Origin: a virus
Virus record (IMG/VR): IMGVR_UViG_3300009370_001553
Coordinates: 1-44,885 of that record
Direction: 5' to 3' (one strand)
DNA length: 44,885 nucleotides
Part shown: one piece after another, positions 4,101 through 39,563 of the stretch
Position numbering within the stretch: the first letter of the stretch is position 1
How the letters are laid out: each line of letters opens with the position of its first letter
The notes under the pieces: model-generated
Databases searched by the model: none
Seen by the model: the letters and a program-made list of their open reading frames with translations, nothing else
What the model was told of the DNA's origin: nothing
Made by a program: the position numbers and the translations under genes

Positions 4101-4211
4101 TTAAATCACAACATCGCAATAACAATGTTCGCAAGGACATATTCCGTATTCGTCTGCGTGAAGTTCCTCATCACAGTGACAAGGGTGATAACATTTATTA
4201 CATTCGATCAT
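4101..4211 (-). CDS. 36-residue Cys/His-rich microprotein
   Basis: A short reading frame tail-to-tail with the fibre-associated gene. It has 8 Cys (positions 4, 7, 11, 13, 25, 27, 30, 32) and 4 His in 36 residues. The arrangement is CxxCxxxCxC, then an acidic hinge (DEELHADEYG), then CPCEHCYC, i.e. two four-Cys knots that could each bind a zinc or iron. On the minus strand a GAGGAGAA ribosome site lies upstream at about 4222-4229. Its spacing better suits an ATG at 4219 that reads only three codons before a stop, so initiation at 4211 may involve coupling. The density and symmetry of Cys codons argue against chance. The CPCEHCYC core resembles CQCENCTC in the 22-residue protein at 18155. Function unknown; metal binding is inferred. 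Confidence 0.6.
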   Translation of the reverse strand: MIECNKCYHPCHCDEELHADEYGICPCEHCYCDVVI

Positions 4212-15998: not shown

Positions 15999-17039
15999 AT
16001 GTACCAAATTGATACTATAGAAAGTATTACAATTGAAGCCACGAATTTTTGTAATGCTAAATGTCCACAATGTGCTAGATATAATTATTATGGAGAACTA
16101 CAAAAAGATCTACCTTTAATGCACATTAACACAAACAATTTACTAAATTTACCTTTACAAAAAATGAAAAGTTTAAAAAAAATTAAGTTTAATGGCAATT
16201 ATGGAGACCCATTAATGCATCCACAAATTGACAAAATATTTGAAACTTTTCAAAACTATGCAATGACTGTTAGTACTAATGCGTCTTTAAGATCAATTGC
16301 TTGGTGGGGAAAACTTGCCAAATATAATATGAAAGTCAAATTTGCAATCGATGGGCTAGAGGATACGCATTCATTATATCGTAGAAATACAGACTACAAA
16401 AAAATTATGGACAATGCAAAAGCATTTATAAATGCTGGTGGTAATGCAGAATGGCAATATATAATTTTTAAACATAACGAACATCAAGTAGATGAAGCAA
16501 AACTATTAAGTGAAAAATTAGGTTTTAAAGGTATTGTTTTTCAATACAGTGACAGATTTTTAGCGACAAACAAAACTCCTGTATATGAAAATAAAAAAAT
16601 TGCATACTATTTAGAATCTGCTACTAAACAAAAAACCATGCATGAATTAAGTGGAGCAAAAGAAGGAACATTTTACACAAAAAACTTTTTAAATAACGAA
16701 AACATGACTAGTGAAATACAATGCCCATGGGCAGAAACAAAACGTTTACAGATAAGTGCAGATAGTCTTGTTTTTCCTTGTTGTTATATGTTGAATGTTT
16801 TGGTGAATAAACCAATTCATAAAAGCCTTTGGGAAAAAATAATCAAGTCATATTCTGGAGTAAACTTAAATTATCACACATTTGAAGATATTCTAACAAG
16901 TGAAATTTTTCAAAAACTTATCCCAGCTAGTTTAAAAAACAAACCTCATATTACTTGTATAGAACATTGTGCAAATAACTTTAGTAAAGGTAAACTGTTT
17001 GGCCAAGAACAGACAGTCTTAAATAGTGCATATGACTAA
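15999..17039 (+). CDS. Radical SAM enzyme with C-terminal SPASM-like Cys cluster
   Basis: 346 residues. The radical SAM motif CNAKCPQC (CxxxCxxC; Cys 18, 22, 25) follows ESITIEATNFCNAKCPQC, holding the [4Fe-4S] cluster that splits S-adenosylmethionine. The barrel strands follow (FNGNYGDPLMHP, VSTNAS, VKFAIDGLEDTHSLYRR). A second Cys set begins near residue 241: CPW, PCC (~262) and CIEHC (~320), the spacing of a SPASM/twitch domain that carries an auxiliary Fe-S cluster. SPASM enzymes usually modify peptides or proteins. It sits inside the packaging genes, between gp4 and small terminase, and overlaps gp16 by 8 nt. The substrate is unknown. Confidence 0.85.
   Translation: MYQIDTIESITIEATNFCNAKCPQCARYNYYGELQKDLPLMHINTNNLLNLPLQKMKSLKKIKFNGNYGDPLMHPQIDKIFETFQNYAMTVSTNASLRSIAWWGKLAKYNMKVKFAIDGLEDTHSLYRRNTDYKKIMDNAKAFINAGGNAEWQYIIFKHNEHQVDEAKLLSEKLGFKGIVFQYSDRFLATNKTPVYENKKIAYYLESATKQKTMHELSGAKEGTFYTKNFLNNENMTSEIQCPWAETKRLQISADSLVFPCCYMLNVLVNKPIHKSLWEKIIKSYSGVNLNYHTFEDILTSEIFQKLIPASLKNKPHITCIEHCANNFSKGKLFGQEQTVLNSAYD
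17018..17025 (+). promoter_or_regulatory. Candidate late promoter box CTTAAATA
   Basis: It lies within the 3' end of the radical SAM gene, 6 nt before ATG 17032 of the small terminase gene. No Shine-Dalgarno sequence. Confidence 0.4.
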
Positions 17040-17553: not shown

Positions 17554-17559
17554 TTGCAT

Positions 17560-18153
17560 ATGAGCACATTTACAAAGTATCTTACAGAAGCGGCTAAATC
17601 ATATGACTATAAAATTAAGGTAGCAGGTGATATCGACAAGGATTTTGCAACACGCATGGAAACTTGCCTTCAAAAATTTGAAGTTGCTAAAATGTCAGCA
17701 GGAAAGAAAACTCCAATACAATCACTTCCATTAGATTTTCCAGCATTAACAAATGAGGCTGTAACAATTTTTGATGTAACAACAAATTATCCAACAGCAG
17801 TTAGAGAAATGCATGAATATCTAGCAGATTATATGAATATTTCTCCGGCAATGATTGTTGTAAGAAAACCGGATGAACCAACAGAAGAATATCAAGAGCA
17901 AATGGCAGTTGCAGGCAAATCAGAATACAAAAACAAACTACAAGATATTGAAATGTCAGATGCACCTAAAGTAAATGCAGAAGAGTTTCATTCTTCAAAA
18001 GCAAATATGAGCTTATTAAAAGAATTATTAAAAGATAGAAAACAAAACGATAATCCAAAAGAGAAAGAAAATGCTACAACTAAAGAAGATTCACCAGCAG
18101 ATTCTCCTTTAACAAAAGCAACTAACCCACATCCAGATCCAAAAAGGAAATAA
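17560..18153 (+). CDS. Conserved-looking virion- or packaging-associated protein, unknown
   Basis: 197 residues from ATG 17560; a TTG two codons earlier is less likely. The N-terminus (STFTKYLTEAAKSYDYKIKV, AGDID) and the mixed alpha/beta part (VTIFDVTTNYPTAVREMHEY, ADYMNISPAMIVVRKPDEP) look like a folded domain of ~115 residues. The last ~60 residues are hydrophilic (KDRKQNDNPKEKENATTKED) and probably disordered. No enzymatic motif. Its place between the terminase subunits suggests a late role. I do not recognise its function. Confidence 0.6.
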   Translation: MSTFTKYLTEAAKSYDYKIKVAGDIDKDFATRMETCLQKFEVAKMSAGKKTPIQSLPLDFPALTNEAVTIFDVTTNYPTAVREMHEYLADYMNISPAMIVVRKPDEPTEEYQEQMAVAGKSEYKNKLQDIEMSDAPKVNAEEFHSSKANMSLLKELLKDRKQNDNPKEKENATTKEDSPADSPLTKATNPHPDPKRK

Positions 18154-18154
18154 T

Positions 18155-18223
18155 ATGCCTTGTAATAATCCAAATTGTCAGTGTGAAAATTGTACTTGTG
18201 AAAATTGTACTTGTGGAGAATAA
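18155..18223 (+). CDS. 22-residue seven-Cys microprotein
   Basis: ATG 18155 with the ribosome site AAGGAAA just upstream (about 18145-18151) and a 1-nt gap from the previous stop; the following ATG is 3 nt after its stop. The peptide is MPCNNPNCQCENCTCENCTC plus GE, with Cys at 3, 8, 10, 13, 15, 18, 20 (32% Cys). The CENCT unit is a perfect 15-nt tandem duplication (18182-18196 and 18197-18211). The CxCxxCxC spacing is metallothionein-like. Placement in a tight co-directional set with its own ribosome site makes chance unlikely. Metal binding is inferred. It lies between two radical SAM genes, so a modified-peptide precursor is a more speculative alternative. Confidence 0.65.
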   Translation: MPCNNPNCQCENCTCENCTCGE

Positions 18224-18226
18224 ATT

Positions 18227-19648
18227 ATGGAAATGATAGACGTTTTAAATAAATTACAAGAAATCGCAGAAACAAAACCCGAACTAGTTAAAGATGCTGT
18301 TGAAAGCGTTGAAAAAACTAATCCAAAAAATGTTACAGAATTTCGAAACGTTGTTACTCCACGTGATGAATCACATTATAGAGAAATGATGAAGCATCTT
18401 CAAGACATGGAAATAGATCCTGTGAATAGAAGAGATCCTTCATTAATGAAGGAAATACAACAAAGAAGAATGGAATTAAGAAACTGGGCAGAAAAAAATA
18501 TAAAAAAAGAAGATGGTTTGGAAGAAAGAAAGCCTGGTGGAATGTCAGATATACACATTGGTGCAGATGAATACATAGGAAATTATACACGTGATGATGC
18601 ACCTGATACTTTAAAAATGCCAAAAGCAGATGTATTAAGAGCAATGGACGCAGAAGCCAAAAGATCACCTTTTCCAAAATCATATGAAATTGAAACAGCA
18701 ATGAAAATGGTTGATGAAAAATTTGAAGATGACGGCTCACCTAAAGACGAAATGCCAGAACCAGATGAAGTAATGGCAAGTGCTGAGCCTCAAACAACTG
18801 AAACACCGGTGCAGGAAAAAACAATTGGTCAAGGACTACCTATAGGAACCGAAGCATTTTTAAATATGGGTTCAAAATTAGATATTAATTTTAGTAGAGA
18901 CCAAGCATATATGGTGTCTGGTGTTTTAAACAGATTAGACCAAGATGCTTTATTAAAAGCAGTAGATGAATATAAATCACAAGAATTAGATCCTGATCAA
19001 GCAGAGAGTAAAGAACTAAATACAAATACAATGACAACAGAAGGTAAAAAACAAGTAAACGAAGCAAAAAAAGTAGACGAAGCAATAACAATGACTGCTG
19101 ATTCACCAGAAGAAGCAGGTATGTTAATGCAAATGTTAAAATTAGCAGGTGTACAGCAAGTAACACCTGATATGATTGGTGCAGAAGAACCAGCAGAAAA
19201 TCCACCACACGGTGAACCGGGTCATGTATGTGGTACAGACGATGATGCTATTGGATCAAACGACATGGGTAAAATGAGAGATGTTGTTACTGCTCCAGAT
19301 GAAGAAAAAGCAGAAGAAAATTTTGCAAATTCTGAAAAAGAAGCAGAAAGAGATTTACCAAAAACTTCAGATGTTGACACACTAGTTAATGTTCATTCTG
19401 GTGGTTTAAACAAACAAAAACAACAAGTAAGAAAAGAATATCCAGGAGATAATCCACTTGCAGTTGAAGATACAATTACTGAAGAAGATTTGGCAAATAG
19501 TTTTAGAGCACAATACGAAGACTTTAAAGCATCATATCAAGAAGCGGCAAAAGTTACTGAAAAAAAAGCAAAACCAGACTTTTTAGATATGGATAAAGAC
19601 GGCAATAAAAAAGAGCCGATGAAAAAAGCAATTTCTGATAAAAAATAA
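18227..19648 (+). CDS. Large acidic, scaffold-like protein, unknown function
   Basis: 473 residues, strongly charged (very rich in Glu, Asp, Lys), probably extended or helical with disordered linkers. Visible parts: an N-terminal helical region (NKLQEIAETKPELVKDAVES), a patch LPIGTEAFLNMGSKLDINFS (near residue 205), a conserved-looking segment TADSPEEAGMLMQMLKLAGV (near 288), and a tail with DFLDMDKDGNKKEPMKKA whose D-x-D-x-D-G resembles a calcium loop or dockerin-like tag. GGAG precedes the ATG. Its place among packaging genes suggests an assembly role. No catalytic motif. Confidence 0.6.
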   Translation: MEMIDVLNKLQEIAETKPELVKDAVESVEKTNPKNVTEFRNVVTPRDESHYREMMKHLQDMEIDPVNRRDPSLMKEIQQRRMELRNWAEKNIKKEDGLEERKPGGMSDIHIGADEYIGNYTRDDAPDTLKMPKADVLRAMDAEAKRSPFPKSYEIETAMKMVDEKFEDDGSPKDEMPEPDEVMASAEPQTTETPVQEKTIGQGLPIGTEAFLNMGSKLDINFSRDQAYMVSGVLNRLDQDALLKAVDEYKSQELDPDQAESKELNTNTMTTEGKKQVNEAKKVDEAITMTADSPEEAGMLMQMLKLAGVQQVTPDMIGAEEPAENPPHGEPGHVCGTDDDAIGSNDMGKMRDVVTAPDEEKAEENFANSEKEAERDLPKTSDVDTLVNVHSGGLNKQKQQVRKEYPGDNPLAVEDTITEEDLANSFRAQYEDFKASYQEAAKVTEKKAKPDFLDMDKDGNKKEPMKKAISDKK

Positions 19649-21557: not shown

Positions 21558-23126
21558 ATGAAAGTACTTTGTTTTGGCGATAATACATCAAAAGAAGCAT
21601 GGGCACATAAATTATCAAAAAATTTTGCAGAAAAAAATAAACTAACTTTTCGTGGTATGTTTAATAATAATACTAAAGAAATTTTAGACGGTTGCTATCA
21701 TACAAGCACTCATGAATTATCTACTAAAAAAATAATAGAATCAAAAAAGAACTTTAATCAATTTATAATTTTAGATCAACCACAAGAAAGATATTCGCAC
21801 CATAGTTTATTTCAAAGAATGTTTCAACTAATACAGTTTTTTCGAGAAAAAAATATTGAATTTACAATGTTAAATCCAAAAAATTTTGAAATAATCGAAT
21901 ATTGGACAAATTTGTTGACTACTAATAGAAGTTTTTGTTTAAGACCGTGGATCACATATGCAAGTTTTAATGGATACCGTAGATCTTGTGAAAGGGGTGA
22001 ATCTGCTTTAAAGCCATTAATCAAAAGCACAGACAAAATAGATTGGCAGAATAATGAAGCCTTTAATAATTTAAGAAGTAGAATGTTAAAAGGATTACCA
22101 AACGAAGAGAACTGTGGGTGGTGCATTATGCACGAAAAATTCGGGTCTCACCTAACTACAAGATGGCACGATACTTTACAATGGGCGACAAAATTAAAAT
22201 TAAAAAATATAAATGATTTAAAAAAATTTACAAGTCCGGTTTATTATGAGATTAGACCTGGAAACAAATGCAACATAATGTGCAGATCATGTACTCCCGG
22301 ATTTAGTTCATTAATCGAAGAAGAATATAAAAATATAGATCATCCATATTTTAAAAAATATTATGAAAAACAAAAACGTGGTTATGATTCTTTTGACGTT
22401 GTGGATTTAGATACAGCAAAAACAATATATGTTACTGGAGGTGAGCCAACAATAAATGCTGAATTTTATGCCTTTTTAAGAAAATGTATTAAAGAAAATA
22501 AAACAAATTTTAATTTAAGAATAAATTCAAACTTTATGAAAATAAGCAATCCTATAAGAGAATTATTCAAACATTTTAATGATATTGGATTTACAGTAAG
22601 TATTGATGGTACACCAAAAGTGACTGAATATATTAGATGGAAAACGGTTCAAGAACAAGTAGAAAAAAATATTTACTTACTAAAAAATGATGGACATGAA
22701 ATGGCCTGCATTAGTGTCGTAAGCATATACAATATTACCACTATAGGTGAGACTCTTGAATATTTAGAAACAAAGTTTCCATTTTTTACAGTGCAATTAA
22801 ATTATGGTGGACATCGTGGCGATATATTAAACTGTTTTAATCATCCAAACAAAGATATGGTAATTGCAAGTTTGGAAAAAGCACGTAAATCTAAAATTTA
22901 TTATGACAACGAAAGAGATACAAAATCTTTACTAGATTCTTTATACAAGCACTATACTAGTGATTATAAAGTTGATTACGACAAACTAAAGAAATTTTTT
23001 GAATATAACGATATATTAGACAAAAGTAGAGGTTCAAAATTAGGCGATTATATACCCGAATTAGAAGCCTGTAGAAAACTTATAAATACACAATATGAAC
23101 CCAAAAACGTCACAAGACCTTTTTAA
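21558..23126 (+). CDS. Twitch-type radical SAM protein
   Basis: 522 residues. Three parts can be seen. Residues 1-~120: an N-terminal alpha/beta region (MKVLCFGDNTSKEAWAHKL; FIILDQPQERYSHHSLF). Residues ~125-190: a Cys-rich segment FCLRPWITYASFNGYRRSC and NCGWC, resembling a SPASM/twitch auxiliary-cluster domain placed before the core. Residues ~230-430: the radical SAM core with NKCNIMCRSC (CxxxCxxC), VTGGEPTI (SAM binding) and VSIDGTPKV. This order (twitch then core) is known in a family of bacterial radical SAM proteins associated with polysaccharide or peptide loci; substrates are mostly unknown. It starts 42 nt after gp17 and overlaps the next gene by 32 nt. Confidence 0.85.
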   Translation: MKVLCFGDNTSKEAWAHKLSKNFAEKNKLTFRGMFNNNTKEILDGCYHTSTHELSTKKIIESKKNFNQFIILDQPQERYSHHSLFQRMFQLIQFFREKNIEFTMLNPKNFEIIEYWTNLLTTNRSFCLRPWITYASFNGYRRSCERGESALKPLIKSTDKIDWQNNEAFNNLRSRMLKGLPNEENCGWCIMHEKFGSHLTTRWHDTLQWATKLKLKNINDLKKFTSPVYYEIRPGNKCNIMCRSCTPGFSSLIEEEYKNIDHPYFKKYYEKQKRGYDSFDVVDLDTAKTIYVTGGEPTINAEFYAFLRKCIKENKTNFNLRINSNFMKISNPIRELFKHFNDIGFTVSIDGTPKVTEYIRWKTVQEQVEKNIYLLKNDGHEMACISVVSIYNITTIGETLEYLETKFPFFTVQLNYGGHRGDILNCFNHPNKDMVIASLEKARKSKIYYDNERDTKSLLDSLYKHYTSDYKVDYDKLKKFFEYNDILDKSRGSKLGDYIPELEACRKLINTQYEPKNVTRPF

Positions 23127-28464: not shown

Positions 28465-29074
28465 AATAATCCTTACTGACGTAGACGGCGTATTACTAGA
28501 ATGGGAACACCATTTTACTAAATGGATGTTACAGCGAACACTCTTTGATAAAAAAGGAAATAGATATCACCCATATAGATTGTTAGAAGACAAAAAAAAC
28601 ACTTACGAAATGGCAGAGCGTTTTGGTGTTACTATTCCAGAAATTAGAAAAGAGATTAGAGAATTTAACAGAAGTGCTTGGATGGGAACACAACGGCCTA
28701 TGACAGATTCACAAACTTGGGTTAAACTACTACATGCAGAAGGTTGGACATTTATACCAATTACTTCACAAACATCTGACAAGCCAGCACAAGAATTACG
28801 TAAAAGACGACTTGGAGAATTGTTTGGGGATCATGTTTTTTCAAACTACCACATATTAGGTACAGGAGCAGACAAAGATTCAGCATTAGCAGAGTTTCAC
28901 AACACCGGACTGTATTGGGTCGAGGACAAGCCTAAGAACGCTTTAGCCGGGCTCAATTACGGTTTAAAGGTGTTATTATACGACCGTCCATATAACCGAG
29001 ACTTCAACCACCCTGAGATTACCAGAGTAAATAACTGGAAAGACATACACCAAATTTTATCAGGAAGAAAATGA
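28448..29074 (+). CDS. HAD-superfamily phosphatase (5'-nucleotidase-like)
   Basis: 208 residues. HAD motif I is IILTDVDGVLLEWE (Asp 11 and 13), motif II is FIPITSQTSD, a Lys-rich segment follows, and motif IV is YWVEDKPKNALAGL. Layout and size resemble small phage 5'(3')-deoxyribonucleotidase or polynucleotide 3'-phosphatase-like HAD enzymes. It could dephosphorylate nucleotides or the sugars handled by the following genes. It overlaps uvsY by 17 nt and the next transferase by 4 nt (ATGA), so it bridges the recombination genes and the glycan island. Confidence 0.8.
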   Translation: MPQSNRIILTDVDGVLLEWEHHFTKWMLQRTLFDKKGNRYHPYRLLEDKKNTYEMAERFGVTIPEIRKEIREFNRSAWMGTQRPMTDSQTWVKLLHAEGWTFIPITSQTSDKPAQELRKRRLGELFGDHVFSNYHILGTGADKDSALAEFHNTGLYWVEDKPKNALAGLNYGLKVLLYDRPYNRDFNHPEITRVNNWKDIHQILSGRK

Positions 29075-29790
29075 AAATATACATAGGTTGGGATTCAAGA
29101 GAAGACATAGCATTTCAGGTTGCTAGACACTCAATATTAAAAAGAACAAAAAGCGATGTTGAAGTTGTTCCAATTAAACAATACGAATTAAGAACTGCAG
29201 GAATTTATAATCGTCCTATTGATAAAAAAGCATCAACAGAGTTTAGTCTTACACGTTTTGCTGTTCCTATATTAAATGATTATAAAGGTTGGGCAATATT
29301 TGTTGACTGTGACTTTTTATGGTTAAGTGATGTAAAGGAAATATTTGATATGGCTGATGACAAATATGCTGTAATGTGCGTTCATCACGATTATAAACCA
29401 AAAGAAGAAGTTAAAATGGACGGCAAACAACAATTTGCTTATCCAAGAAAAAACTGGAGTTCAATGATGTTATGGAATTGTGGACATCCGTCCAATAAAA
29501 AACTTACTAAAGAAGTTTTAAACAACGAAACTACACCGTTCTTACACAGATTCCGCTGGCTTAAAGATGAGGAAATTGGTGAAATACCTTATCAATACAA
29601 CTACCTAGAAGGTTGGTATAAAACTAATGATGCTAAAGTGGTTCACTATACACGTGGTGGGCCGTGGTTTGAAAATGGTTACATACCAGAAGACATTGGA
29701 CTTAAATCATGGAATGACGTTGACTACGGTAAAGAATGGAGACAAGAAGAACAAGAATATATTAAAACTAAATTCCTTGCGAGGAATTAG
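29071..29790 (+). CDS. GT-A-type glycosyltransferase (GT8-like)
   Basis: 239 residues. MKIYIGWDSREDIAFQVARH at the start, then SLTRFAVPILNDYKGWAIFV and the DxD metal/nucleotide-sugar motif VDCDFLW (near residue 85), plus VVHYTRGGPWF near the C-terminus (the His that GT8 enzymes use for metal). This is a family of small sugar transferases. It is the first clear glycan gene of the island and overlaps the HAD gene by 4 nt. The donor sugar cannot be told. A hairpin spans its stop codon. Confidence 0.8.
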   Translation: MKIYIGWDSREDIAFQVARHSILKRTKSDVEVVPIKQYELRTAGIYNRPIDKKASTEFSLTRFAVPILNDYKGWAIFVDCDFLWLSDVKEIFDMADDKYAVMCVHHDYKPKEEVKMDGKQQFAYPRKNWSSMMLWNCGHPSNKKLTKEVLNNETTPFLHRFRWLKDEEIGEIPYQYNYLEGWYKTNDAKVVHYTRGGPWFENGYIPEDIGLKSWNDVDYGKEWRQEEQEYIKTKFLARN

Positions 29791-29792
29791 TT
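29766..29792 (+). promoter_or_regulatory. Hairpin over the stop codon, masking a ribosome site
   Basis: AATTCCT (29771-29777), loop tgcg, AGGAATT (29782-29788), extended by AACT/AGTT around a single bulged A. The AGGA in the right arm is the only ribosome-site-like sequence for the gene at 29800. A ribosome finishing the previous gene would open it, suggesting translational coupling. Confidence 0.4.
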
Positions 29793-29799
29793 ATGTTTA

Positions 29800-30231
29800 A
29801 TGAACTGGGAAAAATTAAGAAAACCTCATTATCACAAAGAACCGGTTGAATACATTTACGCAACTGGCATTTTTAATCTTAAAGAATACGATAAACTTTA
29901 CGAAAACCAAAACAACCTTTCTCACCAAATTTGGCAAGACTTTGATACCAAATATAAAATTGGTTTTGAATTTTTTAAAGACTTACGTGAGTTTAATAAA
30001 AATAAAGAAGTAATTTGTTTATGGTTTTTTAAAGAAAGATCTGATAGGGAAGCCGGTAACGATATAGATCTAAAAGGAAAAATTATAAAATATCAACCTA
30101 ATACATTTTTAATAACAAGATCTAAAAACATAAAAATAATTAAAAGGAAATCAGTTTTACCTAACAGACCGGTTTTACAATTAGATTTAAGCATAAACAA
30201 ATACAATAAAATTATAAAAATAGTAAGATAA
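29800..30231 (+). CDS. Protein of unknown function in glycan island
   Basis: 143 residues, basic, mixed alpha/beta. Aromatic-rich segments EYIYATGIFNLKEYDKLYEN and VICLWFFKERSDREAGNDID are visible, then a Lys/Ile-rich C-terminus. No known motif, signal peptide or membrane segment. Start taken at ATG 29800; the ATG at 29793 is out of frame. It stands between a glycosyltransferase and a second unknown with no long gaps, so it likely works in the same pathway, but nothing in the sequence shows how. Confidence 0.55.
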   Translation: MNWEKLRKPHYHKEPVEYIYATGIFNLKEYDKLYENQNNLSHQIWQDFDTKYKIGFEFFKDLREFNKNKEVICLWFFKERSDREAGNDIDLKGKIIKYQPNTFLITRSKNIKIIKRKSVLPNRPVLQLDLSINKYNKIIKIVR

Positions 30232-30241
30232 CTAATAGTAT

Positions 30242-30496
30242 ATGAACCACAAAGAAAGAATGTTACAGAAAATAGAACAATTAGGCTTAATTGTTATTCA
30301 TACAGAAATTGCACCATATGGTTCTGGAACTCGTAGATATATGGTTGGACGGAATATAGAAGCACCTGAAAAATCTCATCAAATGGGCAGTGGTAAATGG
30401 CAAATGACTAAAGGTGTACAGGAATGGCTTACACCCGAACCACTTAATGGACCAGACTTAGAAGCTTGGTTAAAAGATTACGAAAACTTTCATTAA
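30242..30496 (+). CDS. Small protein of unknown function
   Basis: 84 residues. N-terminal KERMLQKIEQLGLIVIHTEI suggests a helix-strand start; the middle GSGTRRYMVGRNIEAPEKSH is polar, and the end has WLTPEPLNGPDLEAWLKDYE. No recognisable motif. It shares its stop codon with the next start (TAATG), so it is co-translated with the oxygenase-like protein downstream. Confidence 0.55.
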   Translation: MNHKERMLQKIEQLGLIVIHTEIAPYGSGTRRYMVGRNIEAPEKSHQMGSGKWQMTKGVQEWLTPEPLNGPDLEAWLKDYENFH

Positions 30497-31104
30497 TGAT
30501 TGGGCAAAATTTTGTTGATAAATGCATTAGCACAGATGTAATTACTACTCCATGGCCTCATCAAATTATTGAAAACACATTTGATGAATCTGTATTTGAA
30601 AAATTAAAAACACAATGTATTGAAAAATTAAATTTTCCAACAACAGAATTAGTACAAATTCATCCAAAAGATTATAAAGAATATGGAATAGATTTTTATA
30701 ACGAAACTTTGAATATATGTGAAAGTTTATATGAAAATATAAAAGTGTTATGTGGCAAGTATCCAAAGCATAGATGGTATGAAAACCTAGGAGTCAATGT
30801 ACATATATCTGTTACTCCACCATTACCATGGCAGTTTCACATACACCAGGAAGGTCTTGAAAAAATTTGGAGTGCTGTAACATATGTCTCGCCAGAAAAT
30901 AATGTTGGGACTAAATTTTATACAGCACAAACTAAAGATGCCTACGTAGGCGAAGCAAAATGGAAACCTAATAATACATTTATTTTTTGTGGACAAGAAG
31001 GACATACTTGGCACTCATATGAAAGTAATAAAAATACTAACCGTATTACATTTAATACTTTTATTATGAAGTATAGAAAAAGAGTAACTTTTTATACCAA
31101 TTAA
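30496..31104 (+). CDS. Fe(II)/2-oxoglutarate-oxygenase-like protein
   Basis: 202 residues from ATG 30496; an upstream in-frame start at 30466 lies inside the previous gene. The C-terminal half reads like a double-stranded beta-helix: WQFHIHQEGLEKIWSAVTYV (H-x-E in place of the common H-x-D), GTKFYTAQTKD, WKPNNTFIFCGQEGHTWHSY (distal His) and NRITFNTFIM (Arg that would hold 2-oxoglutarate). The N-terminal PWPHQIIENTFDESVFEKLK is also typical of phage 2OG-Fe(II) enzymes. Possible role: hydroxylation of a sugar, lipid or protein. The convergent minus gene overlaps it by 4 nt. Confidence 0.55.
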   Translation: MIGQNFVDKCISTDVITTPWPHQIIENTFDESVFEKLKTQCIEKLNFPTTELVQIHPKDYKEYGIDFYNETLNICESLYENIKVLCGKYPKHRWYENLGVNVHISVTPPLPWQFHIHQEGLEKIWSAVTYVSPENNVGTKFYTAQTKDAYVGEAKWKPNNTFIFCGQEGHTWHSYESNKNTNRITFNTFIMKYRKRVTFYTN

Positions 31105-31703
31105 TTTTTCCAGTACAATTTATCTATTTGATTAACTTTTCCATGATCCCCTATAATGGCACTACTGTTAAATCCTAAACTTTGCATAAATAGGTCCATC
31201 TCATCTACATCAGGTATAAGAGGTTGTTTAGGGTCTTTATATAAATTTACCTCGTTTAAAACATAAGTTGCTCTTTTAAAAATCTCCGGCGAGCCTTTCA
31301 TTACTAAAAGTTCTGCACCTTGTACATCTTGTTTAATAAAATCATAAGTTGCATCGTTGCCAACAATAGATTTAAGTGTTTGCATTTTTCTTTTTTCTAC
31401 TGCTTGTGAAGGAAATGTGTCAATTCCAAATATGTTTGATCCTTTAGTATAAGTTATTTTATGGCCTTTAATCTGTCTTAAGTGCATATCTACTTCTTTA
31501 TTTTCGTTTCCTAATACAGCAATAAAAACTTCATTTGCACATTTTAATAATCTTCCTTCGTGTTTTTTTCCTGCTTCTATGCAAGTATAATGTGCATCAG
31601 GCCAAAATTCTTTCACATCTCTAGTCCAACTTCCGTTCCATGCACCTAAATCTAAAATTTTTTTTGGTTTAAAATCTAAATTTTCTAAATATTCGTACAT
31701 CAT
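31101..31703 (-). CDS. FkbM-family SAM-dependent methyltransferase (A)
   Basis: 200 residues. SAM motif I KKILDLGAWNGSWTRDVKEF, the acidic strand end CIEAGKKHE, and FIKQDVQGAELLVMKGSPEI (the FkbM signature D-V-x-G-x-E) are clear. FkbM enzymes O-methylate sugars or polyketides, often in surface-polysaccharide clusters. It is the last gene of a four-gene minus-strand operon; its start overlaps the stop of the second methyltransferase by 4 nt. Confidence 0.85.
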   Translation of the reverse strand: MMYEYLENLDFKPKKILDLGAWNGSWTRDVKEFWPDAHYTCIEAGKKHEGRLLKCANEVFIAVLGNENKEVDMHLRQIKGHKITYTKGSNIFGIDTFPSQAVEKRKMQTLKSIVGNDATYDFIKQDVQGAELLVMKGSPEIFKRATYVLNEVNLYKDPKQPLIPDVDEMDLFMQSLGFNSSAIIGDHGKVNQIDKLYWKN

Positions 31704-32368
31704 GCTCTATAAAATACTATGTCTGGCCAGATTTTTATAAGAATTTTAAATCCTAAATTTTTTATATACTTTTCAACCTCTAAATTACTTGAGCCATATT
31801 TTTTTGTATTATTATTAAGCTCTACCATAATATACTGTACATTAGATTGGTTCTCATCGTTGAATGTTAAAGTCTTATAGGCACCTTCAAGCACACGCAT
31901 TTCATACCCTTCGACATCTATTTTTATCATATCTACGTCATCATAATTCCAATAATCAATATTAAACATTTGAACATCTTGAATATTGCTAGATTCTTTT
32001 CCTACTCTAGTATTTTGTGTTGCACTTTCTTGTGTTAAAGACACATTACAAAGTTTATCTCCTATTGCAAGTTTATTGCAAGTAACATGATTAAATGGTC
32101 CCATATTTTTTTGCAAACATTCAAAATTTGTTTTATTTGGTTCAAAAGCAATCACACGTTTACAATAAGGTTGCATTGTCTTGCTCCAAGTACCACACCA
32201 AGCACCTACATCTAAAACAGTTTTAAATTTTTTATTTTGTGAATTACAATATTGTACAAAACTTTTTAAACATTTATCTTGCATATGTGGAGCACCTTTT
32301 TTCCTCCATTGTTCTATTTGAGCATCATCTGATGGTAGCCAAAGATCGTTTATTTTTTCTATGTTCAT
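31700..32368 (-). CDS. FkbM-family SAM-dependent methyltransferase (B)
   Basis: 222 residues. Motif I KTVLDVGAWCGTWSKTMQPY, acidic end VIAFEPNKTNFECLQKNMG, and VDMIKIDVEGYEMRVLEGAY (the D-V-E-G-x-E signature). It has an N-terminal helical extension (PSDDAQIEQWRKKGAPHMQD). Similar in layout to methyltransferase A but well diverged, so it probably acts on a different position or sugar. It overlaps the next upstream gene by 4 nt. Confidence 0.88.
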   Translation of the reverse strand: MNIEKINDLWLPSDDAQIEQWRKKGAPHMQDKCLKSFVQYCNSQNKKFKTVLDVGAWCGTWSKTMQPYCKRVIAFEPNKTNFECLQKNMGPFNHVTCNKLAIGDKLCNVSLTQESATQNTRVGKESSNIQDVQMFNIDYWNYDDVDMIKIDVEGYEMRVLEGAYKTLTFNDENQSNVQYIMVELNNNTKKYGSSNLEVEKYIKNLGFKILIKIWPDIVFYRA

Positions 32369-33177
32369 AAAATACCTTTATCCATTAAAATTTCTATAGC
32401 AGTTCCGTTTGTAAATTCTTCAGGTGTAAATTGTTGATAGGCTAAACTATTTAACCATGGTTCTGGGTCAGCATAAAAAGGTTCTTCTATATCTGCTAAA
32501 TGTAAATTACCCATTGCCTTAGCAAAACTTTTTTCATCACAAAATACAGGTTTACCCATACACACTGCTTCAATGGCACTAATTGAACAACTTGTTACAC
32601 ACGCCCAAGCATCTTTTAAATCTTCAGAAAGTGGAACTGTTGCCTCACTTGGTCCTGATGTTCCTCTACCTCTGGGTTTTTCTCTAACCTTGATTGGCCT
32701 GTCTGTATATCTTTTAATTTCTTCTACTGTTTCTTGTATCCAGTTTGGCCTATCTAAATAATTGTGTATTCCTGTTGAACTAGGACAAACTAATATATGA
32801 GATCCTGTTAAGGTTGGTGCTTTTATTGTGATATTAAACTTGTCAAATCTATCAGACTTACAATCTTTTATAAAAGGAACGTGTATTCTACTTTTACAAA
32901 TACGCCAATAATGGTTGTCTGGTTTTAAATTATTATTATCAAATCTTCCAAAATATGGTGTATCAGTAAACCAAAATTGCTGTTTACGTGCTTCTAATTT
33001 TTTAATTAGTTGTAAGTTATTATTAACAAATCCCCAAAACATTGAATTAGCTAAAGGCTCTGTTGCAACACTATTATCATTTACTATAACTTGTTCAGGC
33101 CAAGACTTTTCAACTCCATTAAACACTTCCCATGCCTTGCTATTTGGATTATTAAATGGTGCGTAAATTGTTAGCAT
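32365..33177 (-). CDS. GT-B-like glycosyltransferase, island paralogue 1
   Basis: 270 residues. It shows the shared plan of four island proteins: a middle strand IKVREKPRG, an acceptor-site region ACVTSCSISAIEAVCMGKPV, and the C-terminal signature LNSLAYQQFTPEEFTNGTAI. The region V-T-x-x-S-x-x-x-x-E-A-x-x-x-G-x-P-V-F is the nucleotide-binding part of GT-B enzymes, as in capsule (KpsS-like) and LPS transferases. It is the only minus-strand copy. It overlaps the SGNH gene by 26 nt. Confidence 0.7.
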   Translation of the reverse strand: MLTIYAPFNNPNSKAWEVFNGVEKSWPEQVIVNDNSVATEPLANSMFWGFVNNNLQLIKKLEARKQQFWFTDTPYFGRFDNNNLKPDNHYWRICKSRIHVPFIKDCKSDRFDKFNITIKAPTLTGSHILVCPSSTGIHNYLDRPNWIQETVEEIKRYTDRPIKVREKPRGRGTSGPSEATVPLSEDLKDAWACVTSCSISAIEAVCMGKPVFCDEKSFAKAMGNLHLADIEEPFYADPEPWLNSLAYQQFTPEEFTNGTAIEILMDKGIL

Positions 33178-33817
33178 CTATAAATTCTTTCAGTTCGTTT
33201 GCCCATTGTGTATGTCCTTTAACTGATGGGTGTGGGTCGTTTGGACTTACAATCATGTTTTCTTTCATTACAAAATCATAATGATTACTATTAAATTTAA
33301 AAAACCTTTTTTCATCTATGCTTTCAACTATTTTATTAAAGTCAGCATTATTTAAATTAACTGCATTAGGTAAAGCATTGTACATTACATATGGAATTTT
33401 GTTTAATTTAAAATACGTTTGTAAGTCAAAAACATGATCTAAAAAATTCATTGTAGCAGTATCATCAATATCCCAGCCGAGATTTGAATTAACAAATCTA
33501 AGTTGATCTGCAACTTTCCAAGTACGCCAAGTTAACTCCATATTAGGTATTCTACCTTTTTTCCAACCATCGTTAGTAACATAATCATTTCTAAATAAAC
33601 TAGACCAACCTATAACTGCAAATGTATCTTTGTATCCGTTTTGTTCAAACCATAATTTTGTAGTAAAGCTGATCCGATCATTGCCTCTGCCTCCCATAGC
33701 TAGATTAAATAATTGTAAATTATATTGTTCAGCAAGTATTTTTGTTACAAATGTATTAACATCATCTTTAGGACGAGGACCTAAAAAACTACAACCATTT
33801 GAAAACAATTTAGACAT
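33152..33817 (-). CDS. SGNH/GDSL-like hydrolase
   Basis: 221 residues. Block I is KLFSNGCSFLG (nucleophile Ser), block III region is MGGRGNDRISFTTKL (Gly-Asn), and block V is SPNDPHPSVKGHTQWANELK (Asp and His). The order and spacing fit SGNH hydrolases, which deacetylate or esterify sugars. The gene starts a minus-strand operon with a GT-B-like enzyme and two methyltransferases. Its start codon overlaps the -35 of a divergent promoter. The substrate is not known; O-acetyl groups on glycans are likely. Confidence 0.7.
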   Translation of the reverse strand: MSKLFSNGCSFLGPRPKDDVNTFVTKILAEQYNLQLFNLAMGGRGNDRISFTTKLWFEQNGYKDTFAVIGWSSLFRNDYVTNDGWKKGRIPNMELTWRTWKVADQLRFVNSNLGWDIDDTATMNFLDHVFDLQTYFKLNKIPYVMYNALPNAVNLNNADFNKIVESIDEKRFFKFNSNHYDFVMKENMIVSPNDPHPSVKGHTQWANELKEFIDANNLRTI

Positions 33818-33838
33818 ACTGCTATTTTATAGTATAAT
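33811..33838 (+). promoter_or_regulatory. Sigma70-like promoter for the GT61-like gene
   Basis: TAGACA (33811-33816), 16 nt, TATAAT (33833-33838). Transcription about 7 nt downstream would begin at or next to the ATG at 33847, so this message too could be leaderless. On the minus strand TATACT (33836-33831) may serve the SGNH operon. Confidence 0.6.
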
Positions 33839-33846
33839 TATTTAAA

Positions 33847-34941
33847 ATGCAAACAGTGAAAAATATTACCAGCATAAAATACTTCTTAGATCGTTTTGAA
33901 ACAGTGGATAATGAGTACTCATTTGACGTGAAATATCACGAGAAGGCACCTAAAACACATTTTCATAGTTTGCCAACTTTTGTTGCTGAGTTTAGGAACT
34001 GTTCAGTTAATACTTTGCCTTGTTTAATTACTGAGGATAGACATCTTATAACTGAAAATGTTTGGCCTTTATTACACAAATACAAATACAAACCCCAAAA
34101 AATCCACGGTTTATGGAATGAATGGACTAACCCTACTATTGATATTGAAATACCTACAATTAAAAAACAACTTGACGGTGCAGGTAGATTTGTTTGGTTG
34201 CCTATAGACAAAGAGAGTGCAAACAATCCGTGGCATATATGGATTGATGTTATATCAAAATTTAGATTAATAGAAAAAAGAGGTGTATTAAATTTTTCAA
34301 GATTCATTTATGTATTAAGCAATCCTAGTGCTTACTTTGATAAAGTTGCTAAAGAAATGTTTCCAGATTTAAAATATTATGTTATGCCTGAAGGAGAAAC
34401 TTGGCGTTTCCAACATTTAATTGTTCCGTCAATGAGCAATCATGATGATGGTATAACAACACCACATCTTCCAGCTTGGCTAAGACATTTTAAAGGACTG
34501 TTTGGTTTAAAAGGTTTAGAACCACATAGAAAAATAATTGTATTAAGACCTGGTGCAAAAACAAGAAAACTAGTTAACTCAGCCGAACTAGTACTAGCAT
34601 TAAAAGGTTGGGAAACAGTTGCATTAGAAAATATGACTATAAAAGAACAATTTAAAACTTTTGCAGAAGCAACTCATATACTAGCGGCCCATGGTGCAGG
34701 ACTAATAAATTTACTTTGGTGCAAACCAGATACAAAAGTAATTGAAATACAAGATAGAAGAATGCTACATAAAAAAGTTTATCCTTTATTATCTCATCAT
34801 TTAGGATTAAAACACGAATTACACCTAGCAACAACAATACCAATTGGATATCAAAATAAAAAACCTAAAGGGGTCAAAAGAATCAATGACTTAATAAATT
34901 TTGAGGTTAATATACCAGATTTAATTAGGCTTTTGGATTGA
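33847..34941 (+). CDS. Glycosyltransferase family 61-like (DUF563) protein
   Basis: 364 residues. The diagnostic part is at the C-terminus: IIVLRPGAKTRKLVNSAELV, ATHILAAHGAGLINLLWCKP, TKVIEIQDRRMLHKKVYPLL; the H-G-A-G-L-x-N pattern marks GT61-type transferases. The N-terminal ~200 residues hold a variable domain (FHSLPTFVAEFRNCSVNTLP; YVMPEGETWRFQHL). Such enzymes move pentoses or GlcNAc in other systems, and phage members are found in surface-polysaccharide islands. It starts the long plus-strand operon that runs to 42612. Confidence 0.8.
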   Translation: MQTVKNITSIKYFLDRFETVDNEYSFDVKYHEKAPKTHFHSLPTFVAEFRNCSVNTLPCLITEDRHLITENVWPLLHKYKYKPQKIHGLWNEWTNPTIDIEIPTIKKQLDGAGRFVWLPIDKESANNPWHIWIDVISKFRLIEKRGVLNFSRFIYVLSNPSAYFDKVAKEMFPDLKYYVMPEGETWRFQHLIVPSMSNHDDGITTPHLPAWLRHFKGLFGLKGLEPHRKIIVLRPGAKTRKLVNSAELVLALKGWETVALENMTIKEQFKTFAEATHILAAHGAGLINLLWCKPDTKVIEIQDRRMLHKKVYPLLSHHLGLKHELHLATTIPIGYQNKKPKGVKRINDLINFEVNIPDLIRLLD

Positions 34942-34960
34942 TATCGTTTAAAATTATAAT

Positions 34961-35776
34961 ATGATTTATTGTGTAAAAACTGAAAGACATAACACAGAAA
35001 AGTACATTGAAAATATAGCTAGAGGTTTACCAAACTCTAAACTTGTATCATATAAAGAAACAATTAATTCAACCGATGCTAAAAAAGTTGCGTTTATGGG
35101 ATTTTTGCGAGGAAGTAATTTAGTATATAGATGGGCTGAAACAAAAGGAATAGACTTCTATTATCTTGATAGGCCTTATTGGGGAGAAAGTAGAGGTACA
35201 CCTTACTGGATGAGATGTACTAAAAATCAACACGTTAAAACAATCGTTGATAACAAACCCGATGATAGATTTAAACAAACATTTAAAAATGAAATACTGC
35301 CTTATCATAAAAACGGAAAATATATTTTAGTCGTTCCACCTAGTCATTCAATTGCATTAATGTTTAATGGTGGTTCATGGTTAGAAGATACACTAAAAAT
35401 ATTGAAGGAGAATACAGATAGAGAAATAGTTATTAGAGAAAAACCTTATAATCCTAAATCATTTTTTGATGGTGAAGGAAAGTTAATGCCTGGACCAAGT
35501 GCAAATAAACAACCACAAAAACCATTTGAATGGGATCAAGTTCATGCAGTTGTAACATTTAATAGTTCAATTACAATTAAAGCATTAACAAACGGTGTAC
35601 CTTGCTTTGCTAACTTTGAAAACCCTTGTTTGCCTATATGTGAGCAAGACTTTAGTAAAATAGAAACACCTATATACGAAGATCCTAGACCAGTGTTTCA
35701 TTCACTTGCTTATGGTCAATTTACACAAGAAGAATTTAGAAGCGGATACGCTATGGAGATATTAGATGGACGTTGA
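34961..35776 (+). CDS. GT-B-like glycosyltransferase, island paralogue 2
   Basis: 271 residues. Same plan as paralogue 1: REIVIREKPYNPKSFFDGEG, VHAVVTFNSSITIKALTNGV (then PCF), and the end VFHSLAYGQFTQEEFRSGYA. The N-terminal part (VKTERHNTEKYIENIARGLP) differs and may choose the acceptor. TATAAT stands directly before the ATG (34955-34960), too close to serve this start in the usual way. It overlaps the next gene by 11 nt. Confidence 0.7.
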   Translation: MIYCVKTERHNTEKYIENIARGLPNSKLVSYKETINSTDAKKVAFMGFLRGSNLVYRWAETKGIDFYYLDRPYWGESRGTPYWMRCTKNQHVKTIVDNKPDDRFKQTFKNEILPYHKNGKYILVVPPSHSIALMFNGGSWLEDTLKILKENTDREIVIREKPYNPKSFFDGEGKLMPGPSANKQPQKPFEWDQVHAVVTFNSSITIKALTNGVPCFANFENPCLPICEQDFSKIETPIYEDPRPVFHSLAYGQFTQEEFRSGYAMEILDGR

Positions 35777-36773
35777 GATATTTAGACGTACAGTAAAAGA
35801 TCGTAGACGTGGCGCTAGTTGGGATCTTTTAAAATATATGGCAGAAGGAATTAAAGCTGTTGGAGATAATCCTATTATGGTTAATGAAAATAAAACAGGT
35901 TCATGGACTGAAAACGAAATGGAGCCTACTGCTAAAATAGGTTGTATGTTTGGCTACGGTGGTTCAAAACAAATGCATCATACTAAAGGTAGACGAAGGG
36001 ATTTAGTTGAACGTGCAAAGAAAAAAGGCATTTACATTATTACTTTTGATGGCGGTATACTATCAAGTTTTGGCAATACAATAACAGATCCTAATCATCA
36101 TTGGCGTGTAGCATTATATTCTCCAATGAATAATGGAAACTTTTTAAGTGATAATAGTCCACCAGATAGGTGGGAAAAAATGAGAGCATTGTGGAAAATA
36201 AAATACGAACCATGGCGGAAATCCAATCCAGAAGATCCAATATTATTTGTACTACAACCAAAAGATAATTGGAGTATGAACGAATTAGATCCTATTGATT
36301 GGTTTAATGATGTACATAAAAAACTAAGACCATTAACAAAAAGAAAATTTTTAATACGTCCACACCCAAATCACATGGCCGCAATGGAAAATAGAAAAAA
36401 CGAATTTCCTAAAGATTGTGAACTTATAATAGGACAAAAGTTTTTTAGTGGTGATGAGAAAAAGCATTATAGATTCAACTTCCAAGACGCATTAAATAAT
36501 TGTCATGCTGTTATTACTCACAATTCTACTGCCAGTATCGACTCTTGCGTTCGTGGAATTCCTACCTTTGTTACCTCAGATCTTGCAATTTGTTGGCCTG
36601 TAGCAAACACTGTTTTAGAAGATATAGAAAATCCAAAATATCCTGATAGAACACAGTGGGTTCATGACTTGGGTTATAAACAATGGACAGAAAAAGAAAT
36701 TAGAGACGGCACAGTGTTTAAACGTTTTAAAGAGAAATTATTTCCATTATATAAGGCAAACAATGAAAAGTAA
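35766..36773 (+). CDS. GT-B-like glycosyltransferase, island paralogue 3
   Basis: 335 residues, the longest copy. Core: KRKFLIRPHPNHMAAMENRK, CHAVITHNSTASIDSCVRGI, and the end VHDLGYKQWTEKEIRDGTVF. The extra N-terminal ~60 residues (DVEIFRRTVKDRRRGASWDL) are not in the others. R-P-H-P is the strand used by capsule Kdo-transferases and CDP-glycerol transferases. It overlaps the neighbours by 11 nt at both ends. Confidence 0.7.
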   Translation: MDVEIFRRTVKDRRRGASWDLLKYMAEGIKAVGDNPIMVNENKTGSWTENEMEPTAKIGCMFGYGGSKQMHHTKGRRRDLVERAKKKGIYIITFDGGILSSFGNTITDPNHHWRVALYSPMNNGNFLSDNSPPDRWEKMRALWKIKYEPWRKSNPEDPILFVLQPKDNWSMNELDPIDWFNDVHKKLRPLTKRKFLIRPHPNHMAAMENRKNEFPKDCELIIGQKFFSGDEKKHYRFNFQDALNNCHAVITHNSTASIDSCVRGIPTFVTSDLAICWPVANTVLEDIENPKYPDRTQWVHDLGYKQWTEKEIRDGTVFKRFKEKLFPLYKANNEK

Positions 36774-37578
36774 AAGAATATCGAATCCTGAGAAATATCC
36801 GCGGAGGATCATTTTACTAAGATATCAATATAAGTTTTGTCATTACTTAATATCAAGTTTTCCTCGTTGTGGGCGTACTTGGGTAAAATATTTTTTAGGT
36901 TATTATATTTCAAAAAATTACAATGTTGCTTATAAAAAACAATTAGATAAAAATAGATTGTCGGAACCAAATCTTGGCATACCTCTAATATTGTTTAGAC
37001 ACGACTATCTAAGTCTGCCGGGATTTATCCCATGGGAAGATTATTTTAATATAGTAAAAGAAAATAAATTTTTATTTGAAGAAGCGATGGAACGACAAAA
37101 AATAATATATTTGTTTAGAGATCCAATAGATGTATTGTTTAGTTTTTGGCCATACCTACAAGATATTCCTTATAAAAATTTTGAATGCCCAAAGCATGAA
37201 AATATTATAAGTTTTGCTGGAGAAAAATATTGGGGCATGGACAGCATTATTAATTTTATGAATTTACAATTAGATCATCATGACAAACACAAAAAGAAAA
37301 AACTAATTATAAAATATGAAACCCTTAAACAAGAGGACAAGGAATGGAAAAAAATAATAAACTTTATATTTGGGCAGTTTAATGAAGAAGCATTTGAATA
37401 TGCTAAAGAACAAACTACTTGGAATAAACTGCAACCTACTAACCCAGCTTTTTTTAGAAAAGGCAGATCAAATTATATAACTGAATTACAAAAGGAGCAA
37501 CAAAAAATATTATTAAACTGGCCAGGATTAGCAAAATTAAATGAAAGAATAAAAAAAAATTATGACTTATATTGTTAA
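36763..37578 (+). CDS. Sulfotransferase (A)
   Basis: 271 residues from ATG 36763; an earlier in-frame start at 36664 lies inside paralogue 3. The PAPS-binding loops are clear: 5'-phosphosulfate loop [17 protein letters not shown] near residue 30 and 3'-phosphate site [17 protein letters not shown] near 112. It transfers sulfate from PAPS to hydroxyls, usually on sugars or lipids. Base composition is very AT-rich (long A runs near 37550). It overlaps the ferredoxin gene by 17 nt. Confidence 0.85.
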
Positions 37579-37897
37579 CGACAAATGTATTAAATGTAAA
37601 CTAATGGACTGTATTGAAGTTTGTCCTGTTGATTGTTTTTATGAAGGGGAGAATATGCTAGTCATAAAACCAGATGAATGTATAGACTGCGGAGTATGTG
37701 AACCGGAATGTCCTGTAGATGCAATCGAACCTGATACTAACGAAACGGCAAATAATTGGATTGATCATAATACAAAGTACAGCGAATTATGGCCTGTAAT
37801 TACAAAAAAAGGAACTCCACCAGAAGACGAAGCAAAGTGGAGAGGTGTTCCAGATAAGTTTAAACACTTTAGTGAAAAGCCTGGAGGACAGGGTTAA
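37562..37897 (+). CDS. 7Fe ferredoxin (FdxA type)
   Basis: 111 residues, the normal length for this class. [18 protein letters not shown] gives the mixed [3Fe-4S]/[4Fe-4S] ligands and [18 protein letters not shown] the other [4Fe-4S] set; the C-terminal half ([17 protein letters not shown]) matches bacterial FdxA. It carries electrons at low potential. Within the island it lies between a sulfotransferase and an amidotransferase. Candidate clients in this genome are the two radical SAM enzymes, or host sulfur or nitrogen metabolism. The start overlaps the sulfotransferase by 17 nt. Confidence 0.92.
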
Positions 37898-37898
37898 T

Positions 37899-39563
37899 AT
37901 GTGTGGCATATATGGAATAACAGCAAGAGATCCTGAATTTATAAATCAATATATTAACAAGTGTAAACATAGAGGACCCGATGGGCAAGGTGTTTGGCAC
38001 GACGATACTGTTACATTAGGACATAATCTTTTAAGCATCATGGCTGATCCCGGTGTATCTAAACAACCATGGCGTACACCTAAAGGAAACAGATTAACTT
38101 ACAACGGTGAGATATTCAACTACTATAAACTTAAACAAAAATATAAAAACTTTAAAGACACAACAGGTTGTGATACAGAACTATTAGCATGGGGTCTAGA
38201 TACATATGGGTTAAACTTTATAGACGAAATAGATTCAATGCATGGCTTTGCATACTATGACATGGCAAAAAAAGAAATTATATTAAGCAGAGACCATGCA
38301 GGTATAAAACCTGTGTACTATGCAGAAACAAAAGAAGGGTTAGTGTTTGGTTCTGAAATAAAAGGTATGTTAGATAAAGTCCCTAATTCACGTTCCATAG
38401 ATAATTTAGCAATGAGTTGTTTGGCACATACAGGTATTAATGCTACACGTAATACTGTGTTTAGTGGAATTAAAAAATTATTAGCAGGTGAAACAATAGT
38501 TTATAACATATCAAATAAAAAAATAAAATCACATAAAAGAATTTTTATAAAACCAAACAGTAATCTGGATTTTGATCCCGAAGGGTTCAGAAACATGGCA
38601 CGTAAAACAGTAAAAATGTGTAGTATTGGGAGAAGAAAAATTGGAGTATTTTTAAGTGGTGGGTTGGATTCAAGTTTAATTGCATACGAACTTAAAAATA
38701 TAATGGGAGAAGCAAACACTTTTACTAACCAGATGAACCCAAATATAATTAGTGGTGGTGAAAACTATAACGAAGATGCCATCTGTGCTCAAGTATTAGC
38801 TGATCAAGAAAACTTTAATCATAAAGAAGTAATAATTACACCTAAAATAATAGAAGACTACTGGGATGATTCGATTTATTTTATGGAACAACCTGCATAT
38901 AATCCAAGTCTTGCCATGTATTGTTATACTAATAAAGTATTACATGACAATGGTATAGTAGTAACAATGGCTGGTGATATGGGTGATGAAATACTAGGTG
39001 GGTATCCAAAATATTGGAAAATGAAAAAACTTAAATTTAAAAGCTGGGCCGCTATTATTGATCATTGGACTCGCAGAATAAAACGTCCAATAACACATAT
39101 TAGGGCAACTGTTAGTGGATTGAAGACATGGTTGCTTGTGGATACGAATAATGTGCGTAAGGAACTACTCAAATGCTATCCAGACGATTTATGGAATCCC
39201 GAAGACCCAATTGGTTCTTATATGGCATTAGATTGTATTACTCAAGTACCAGAAGAATTTTTTAATAGAAATGACAAGTATGGTATGGCATATGGTATGG
39301 AAGGACGTTTTCCGTTAGCAACTAAAATGTTTATGCAATATTGTATGAACATACCTAGTCATTTTAAAATTGGGTCTGCAAAAGGTGATACAAAAATGTT
39401 ATCAAAAATTGCTTATAGCGAAAGACTACCTGATAAAATTATTACAAAAATGAAAACGGGTTGGACTGTACCATTACGAGAATGGTGGAATAAAAATACC
39501 AAAGCAGATATACCAGCAATGATAGTAAAAGATTGGATTAAAACTTATAAAATAAAAACGTGA
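37899..39563 (+). CDS. Glutamine-hydrolysing asparagine-synthetase-family amidotransferase (AsnB-like)
   Basis: 554 residues. ATG 37899 is chosen since Cys 2 (MCGIYGI) must be the N-terminal nucleophile; GGAGGACAGGG precedes it. The glutaminase domain has HRGPDGQGVW, TYNGEIFNY and ILSRDHAGIKPVYYA. The synthetase domain has the PP-loop FLSGGLDSS near residue 252 and the downstream MAGDMGDEILGGYPKYW. Homologues in O-antigen clusters amidate uronic acids, a plausible role here among transferases; asparagine supply is the alternative. Ends with a 4-nt overlap (GTGA) with the next gene. Confidence 0.92.
   Translation: MCGIYGITARDPEFINQYINKCKHRGPDGQGVWHDDTVTLGHNLLSIMADPGVSKQPWRTPKGNRLTYNGEIFNYYKLKQKYKNFKDTTGCDTELLAWGLDTYGLNFIDEIDSMHGFAYYDMAKKEIILSRDHAGIKPVYYAETKEGLVFGSEIKGMLDKVPNSRSIDNLAMSCLAHTGINATRNTVFSGIKKLLAGETIVYNISNKKIKSHKRIFIKPNSNLDFDPEGFRNMARKTVKMCSIGRRKIGVFLSGGLDSSLIAYELKNIMGEANTFTNQMNPNIISGGENYNEDAICAQVLADQENFNHKEVIITPKIIEDYWDDSIYFMEQPAYNPSLAMYCYTNKVLHDNGIVVTMAGDMGDEILGGYPKYWKMKKLKFKSWAAIIDHWTRRIKRPITHIRATVSGLKTWLLVDTNNVRKELLKCYPDDLWNPEDPIGSYMALDCITQVPEEFFNRNDKYGMAYGMEGRFPLATKMFMQYCMNIPSHFKIGSAKGDTKMLSKIAYSERLPDKIITKMKTGWTVPLREWWNKNTKADIPAMIVKDWIKTYKIKT

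Follow-up and report, generated by a model that had tools for sequence, protein, structure and literature searches.

Bacterial metallothioneins of the SmtA/BmtA type (Pfam Metallothio_Pro) include SmtA, which contains the half-motif CxCxxCxC. The phage peptide described here has this half-motif as well, but SmtA differs from it in being about 56 aa long, in having His ligands and in its zinc-finger fold. Cys-rich peptides are also found in known RiPP systems, in which SPASM maturases act on them, and leader ORFs with Cys codons exist in actinobacteria. Among fungal metallothioneins of known structure is that of Neurospora crassa (PDB 1t2y), which has 25 residues, 7 of them Cys. It takes up six Cu(I), and the metallothionein of Agaricus bisporus takes up about 5.8 Cu(I) (PMC13107397).

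The stretch of DNA analysed here (the window) is a virus record of 44.9 kb belonging to a T4-like phage of an uncultured marine group. Since its terminase shares no more than 55% identity with those of isolate phages (PA5oct group), there is no close isolate phage. Between two genes of its head and packaging region lies a small ORF for a Cys-rich peptide, and this locus is compared below with the systems above.

The microprotein ORF and its neighbourhood

When the sequence was re-read, the coordinates, strand, ATG, stop codon and 7 Cys given in the original prediction all proved right, and the fitting ribosome site that it proposed is AAGGA, 6 nt ahead of the ATG (Table 1). The 7 Cys among the 22 residues form the array C-x4-C-x-C-x2-C-x-C-x2-C-x-C. 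The perfect tandem duplication encoding CENCT, also pointed out before, is indeed exact: the 15-nt unit TGTGAAAATTGTACT occupies 18182-18196 and again 18197-18211, and because the duplication is common to the window, L048 and L051 lineages, it is not a recent one. At the other end, a GGAG stands 8 nt ahead of the next start, which follows the microprotein stop by 3 nt. Each coding region thus seems to provide, within its 3′ end, the putative ribosome site of its successor.

Table 1. Features at and around the microprotein locus (positions in the window).
Feature	Position	Strand	Basis and remarks
Radical-SAM gene with SPASM domain (rSAM1)	15999-17039		Profile match
Weak terminase-small-like match	17026		Profile search
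Upstream gene, PHROG 14802 virion structural protein (E 7.8e-9)	17554..18153	+	Profile match; one border of the junction
AAGGA, putative Shine-Dalgarno of the microprotein	18144..18148	+	Read from the sequence; within the last codons of the upstream gene
Cys-rich microprotein ORF, 22 aa, MPCNNPNCQCENCTCENCTCGE	18155..18223	+	ORF reading; conserved in relatives
Exact 15-nt tandem duplication, encodes CENCT-CENCT	18182..18211	+	Sequence; also present in L048 and L051 lineages
GGAG, putative Shine-Dalgarno of the next gene (ATG 18227)	18215..18218	+	Read from the sequence; in the last codons of the microprotein
Downstream gene, function not established	18227..19648	+	Other border of the junction; no match of known function
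Short cold-shock-like ORF	19664		Named from the sequence
terL	19920		Profile search
Second radical-SAM gene (rSAM2)	21558-23126		Profile match

The gene order runs from the terminase-small-like match (17026) and the virion structural-like gene (17554) through the peptide and the genes at 18227 and 19664 to terL (19920). The placement "between gp16 and gp17" was thus an approximate one, as the genes at 17554, 18227 and 19664 intervene. The two radical-SAM genes flank the terminase cluster, and both their presence and their positions vary from relative to relative; NF033640 scored above its cut-off in one of the two proteins, and SPASM is found in the other. Further along the window, the ORFs of the run 29071-42612 include glycosyltransferase-, methyltransferase-, asparagine-synthase- and ferredoxin-like ones, as read from sequence only.

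Conservation and patchy occurrence

To gather relatives, the upstream gene and Cys patterns served as queries against viral contigs. Among related T4-like phages, likewise marine and uncultured, four separated lineages have the peptide in one and the same junction, the copies being the window type, the "CRE" variants of L048 and L051, that of L019 (MSCNECKCNCTECNCAYCLCDDCGETRD) and that of L026 (MQCKACKCQCESCTCDYCRCDNCGETRD). It had been proposed that frameshifts or stops in relatives would speak against the gene; every copy found is intact, and the relatives without the peptide have a clean, empty junction. Between L048 and L051 there are 0 nonsynonymous and 4 synonymous changes, between L293 and L298 there are 0 and 3, and between the window and L048 there are 1 and 3. 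L019, L026 and L293 have retained all 9 Cys despite a DNA identity of 68-75%, and non-Cys residues of related peptides, such as GETRD, are kept too. This pattern of substitutions shows selection acting on the predicted protein. The window also has the motif C.C..C.C..C.C within a short ORF just once, and none of 100 dinucleotide shuffles of the window has it, but it is the conservation, beyond the mere rarity of the motif, by which the microprotein is judged to be a real gene.

Conservation of the copies is combined with a scattered distribution. In a wider search, 68 of 74 readable junctions were empty, the two genes being -1 to 12 nt apart, and the remaining 6 all hold a Cys-rich peptide; nothing else was seen there. 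The closest relative without the peptide (L006) has the same gene order and a clean junction, its upstream gene being 92% identical in nucleotides, and on a tree built from the two upstream proteins, the distribution of the peptide takes no fewer than 4 gains or losses. The 9-Cys type is also found in another junction, before an unrelated gene, in other phages (L293, L298-L300). As far as these junctions and the tree go, the peptide is an optional (accessory) cargo gene with patchy gain and loss. Moreover, the peptide DNA of the window and L051 is 97% identical, against 78% for the flanking gene, which in this small sample of sites is a hint that the peptide is exchanged between phages.

Bacterial counterparts and the metallothionein-like reading

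First of all, the composition of the peptide fits that of metallothioneins, which are small and have 20-30% Cys or more: 32% of its residues are Cys, with three CxC, two CxxC, no aromatic residue and no His. The window peptide had no match in Pfam (Metallothio_Pro included) or PHROG at E up to 1, nor in NCBIfam at E up to 5, and the related peptides tested had none in Pfam or NCBIfam. By composition and profile searches, the peptide is classed as metallothionein-like and as outside the named families of these collections. A PDB search with the peptide found nothing, blastn of one variant gave chance-level matches only, and no isolate phage was matched in tblastn by the peptide or by a consensus, a result in which the low-complexity filter probably masks the query and which is not evidence of absence. 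Nothing relevant on phage metallothioneins was found in a literature search confined to open-access papers.

The pattern C.CENCTC is present in more than 100 stretches of viral contigs and more than 100 of bacterial genomes, many of them short Cys-rich ORFs; among the matches listed, 83 of 116 bacterial stretches read as short and Cys-rich. The full motif was found in 1 of the 396 genomes of a Bacteroidota sample, namely the centre genome itself, so the long motif is rare there. Regulator neighbours were sought 3 kb to each side of the bacterial peptides. The query proteins came from these very loci, and a few of the following matches are therefore self-matches. Among the matches listed, a CsoR-type repressor lies 111-215 bp from the peptide at 6 loci, an ArsR-type regulator 77-284 bp away at 8 loci, an HMA-AraC-type regulator 164-268 bp away at 5 loci, and a sigma-70-like (ECF-type) gene within 300 bp for 43 of the whole bacterial set, mostly in Flavobacteriia. 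HMA-AraC-type neighbours were additionally seen at L318 and L320 (n = 2). For examples, Pfam backs the regulator families (PF02583, PF01022 and the AraC HTH), and the N-terminus of the AraC-type regulators is HMA-like in our reading of its MVCPRC motif. In addition, a P-type ATPase with an HMA domain is encoded about 0.7 kb away from L220 and L281, peptides of the Mycolicibacterium type, and in Parafilimonas (L211) cation-efflux (CDF) and heavy-metal-binding-domain genes flank MNTIEVNGPNCGNPNCTCENCTCENCTCGQQ. From the first Cys onward, L211 CGNPNCTCENCTCENCTCG matches phage CNNPNCQCENCTCENCTCG at 17 of 19 positions, although short low-complexity Cys peptides can converge and this likeness is not proof of common descent. 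No Pfam or NCBIfam name was found for the bacterial C.CENCTC peptides.

Two further bacterial groups were met with. At about 43 loci within L176-L292, mostly of Flavobacteriia, a peptide with 11 Cys in about 35 aa (for example MKNKECTCNCEGCSKGNCQNCTCENCTCTNCNC) adjoins an ECF-type sigma factor, and it too has no Pfam or NCBIfam name. At L184 and L205, actinobacterial Cys-rich proteins with a HLDHVDYLHDGHAH stretch and CENCTC repeats stand beside an ArsR-type regulator.

Because the bacterial C.CENCTC peptides sit at metal-regulator and efflux loci, the phage peptide is read as a metallothionein-like chelator. The genomic metal link is strong for the bacterial relatives and absent at the phage locus itself, where no metal gene adjoins the peptide. 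It is rather probable that the gene is a translated accessory one whose product, expressed late along with the head genes, is a miniature metallothionein-like chelator with thiol ligands that buffers or sequesters metal; what carries this reading is the intact ORF, the selection on the protein, the fixed junction, the patchy gain and loss and the bacterial resemblance. Translation would be coupled to that of the upstream gene, and the position among head genes suggests late expression, so that the peptide may be made together with the head proteins. Its seven thiolates would then close around soft metal ions in a small cluster, with Cu(I) as the likeliest metal and Zn(II) as a possible one, and metal in the infected cell could be buffered or sequestered in this way. 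Copper or other soft metals are indicated by the regulators and efflux genes that accompany the bacterial relatives; the sequence by itself is equally compatible with Zn, Fe or Fe-S binding. Since the 7-Cys fungal protein of 25 residues binds about six Cu(I), the size of the peptide suffices. The candidate gains for the phage are protection from copper released in infection, a supply of zinc, or redox buffering.

Other Cys-rich peptides were observed in this and other phages. A second Cys-rich microprotein of 36 aa (MIECNKCYHPCHCDEELHADEYGICPCEHCYCDVVI), on the minus strand at 4101-4211 of the window, has CxCxxCxC near its end and is metallothionein-like; it is conserved among contigs of relatives, where a diverged form (MTTCNKCYHPCHCGEENDLHADEYGVCTCEGCDC) also occurs. 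The marine phage C.CENCTC peptides of L069, L082 and L084 lie about 1.5 kb or less from thermonuclease-like and IscU-/IscA-like genes, the names of which come from the sequence only. In the isolate phages L311-L315, which have a thermonuclease gene resembling the neighbour of other phage peptides, no such peptide was found near that gene. Peptides of the C.CENCTC and CGETRD types occur in roughly a hundred viral contigs. A tentative and broader proposal, which we would not yet lean on, is that marine phages widely carry unannotated metallothionein-like peptides of 20-45 residues, exchangeable cargo between genes that would control host copper or zinc during infection, the 22-mer being among the smallest natural metallothioneins. 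If so, phages would manipulate the metal homeostasis of their hosts by means of peptides whose shortness puts them beyond standard gene callers, viruses and bacteria would contain minimal metal-binding peptides in large numbers that are as yet untapped, and the otherwise unnamed bacterial C.CENCTC peptides would gain a testable role through their regulators.

Alternative readings and known systems

Instead of a metal buffer, the product might be a Zn or Fe peptide with a virion or assembly role, structural or as a chaperone, or a donor of Fe or Fe-S. In favour of such a role, every copy of this phage group is placed among the head and packaging genes, and iron-sulfur proteins are encoded by the phage, namely two of the radical-SAM kind and a ferredoxin-like ORF; but L006 keeps the gene order without the peptide, the Cys array is nearer to metallothionein than to a single zinc knuckle, and the bacterial counterparts accompany regulators for Cu and soft metals. 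We regard this as unlikely, and a structural or Fe-S role, if there is one, could not be essential across the group.

The ORF might also be a regulatory leader, the seven Cys codons of which would sense cysteinyl-tRNA and tune the translation of the downstream head gene, as its stop just before the next start and the ribosome site in its last codons would allow. However, no Cys codons are adjacent and no stable RNA structure was found (fold z = 0.30), so that the features of a Cys-responsive leader are missing. Residues other than Cys, such as GETRD, are kept, most relatives do without the peptide, and the 9-Cys form precedes an unrelated gene in other phages (L293). A leader function is therefore highly improbable.

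About as improbable is a peptide that serves as precursor or substrate of a nearby radical-SAM protein, in the manner of a Cys-rich RiPP. Two such genes lie within 3.4 kb of it, and in L019 a distant radical-SAM gene is just upstream as well; yet peptide and enzyme separate freely at the locus, and their co-occurrence does not back the idea. In L048, L051, L057 and L062 (partial contigs, in which an rSAM gene could be elsewhere) the locus has the peptide and no rSAM1, L023 has rSAM1 without the peptide, and L011 and L034-L036 have rSAM2-like genes without it. Both radical-SAM proteins also score far under the curated cut-offs of peptide-maturase models, and 22 residues with the first Cys at residue 3 contain no leader region. 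The functions suggested originally were chelation of metal or Fe-S, or a role as peptide substrate. Of these, metal chelation is thus strengthened by the resemblance to peptides of bacterial metal-regulator loci, and the substrate role is weakened, as each occurs without the other. Finally, a chance ORF without function, for which its mere 22 codons, the AT-rich genome and its absence from most relatives might speak, hardly deserves belief, being contradicted by the conservation (Cys kept at 68-75% DNA identity with synonymous changes in excess) and by the shuffles, none of which contained the motif.

Compared with known systems, the metallothionein-like peptide resembles radical-SAM RiPP precursors of the ranthipeptide/SCIFF type in being Cys-rich with a SPASM radical-SAM gene nearby, and differs from them in having no leader peptide and no consistent enzyme co-occurrence. 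With the fungal family I copper metallothioneins (N. crassa 1t2y and A. bisporus) it has in common 7 Cys in about 25 residues, CxC and the lack of aromatic residues, while the N. crassa spacing C-x-C-x5-C-x-C-x3-C-x-C-x2-C is unlike its own, and no homology is claimed. The bacterial C.CENCTC peptides are about 30-45 aa long and stand alone beside metal regulators or efflux genes, whereas the phage peptide is shorter and sits in a head-gene cluster with no regulator; for example in Parafilimonas (L211), Gastranaerophilales (L190) and Mycolicibacterium (L220), they share with it both the Cys spacing and the CENCTC core.
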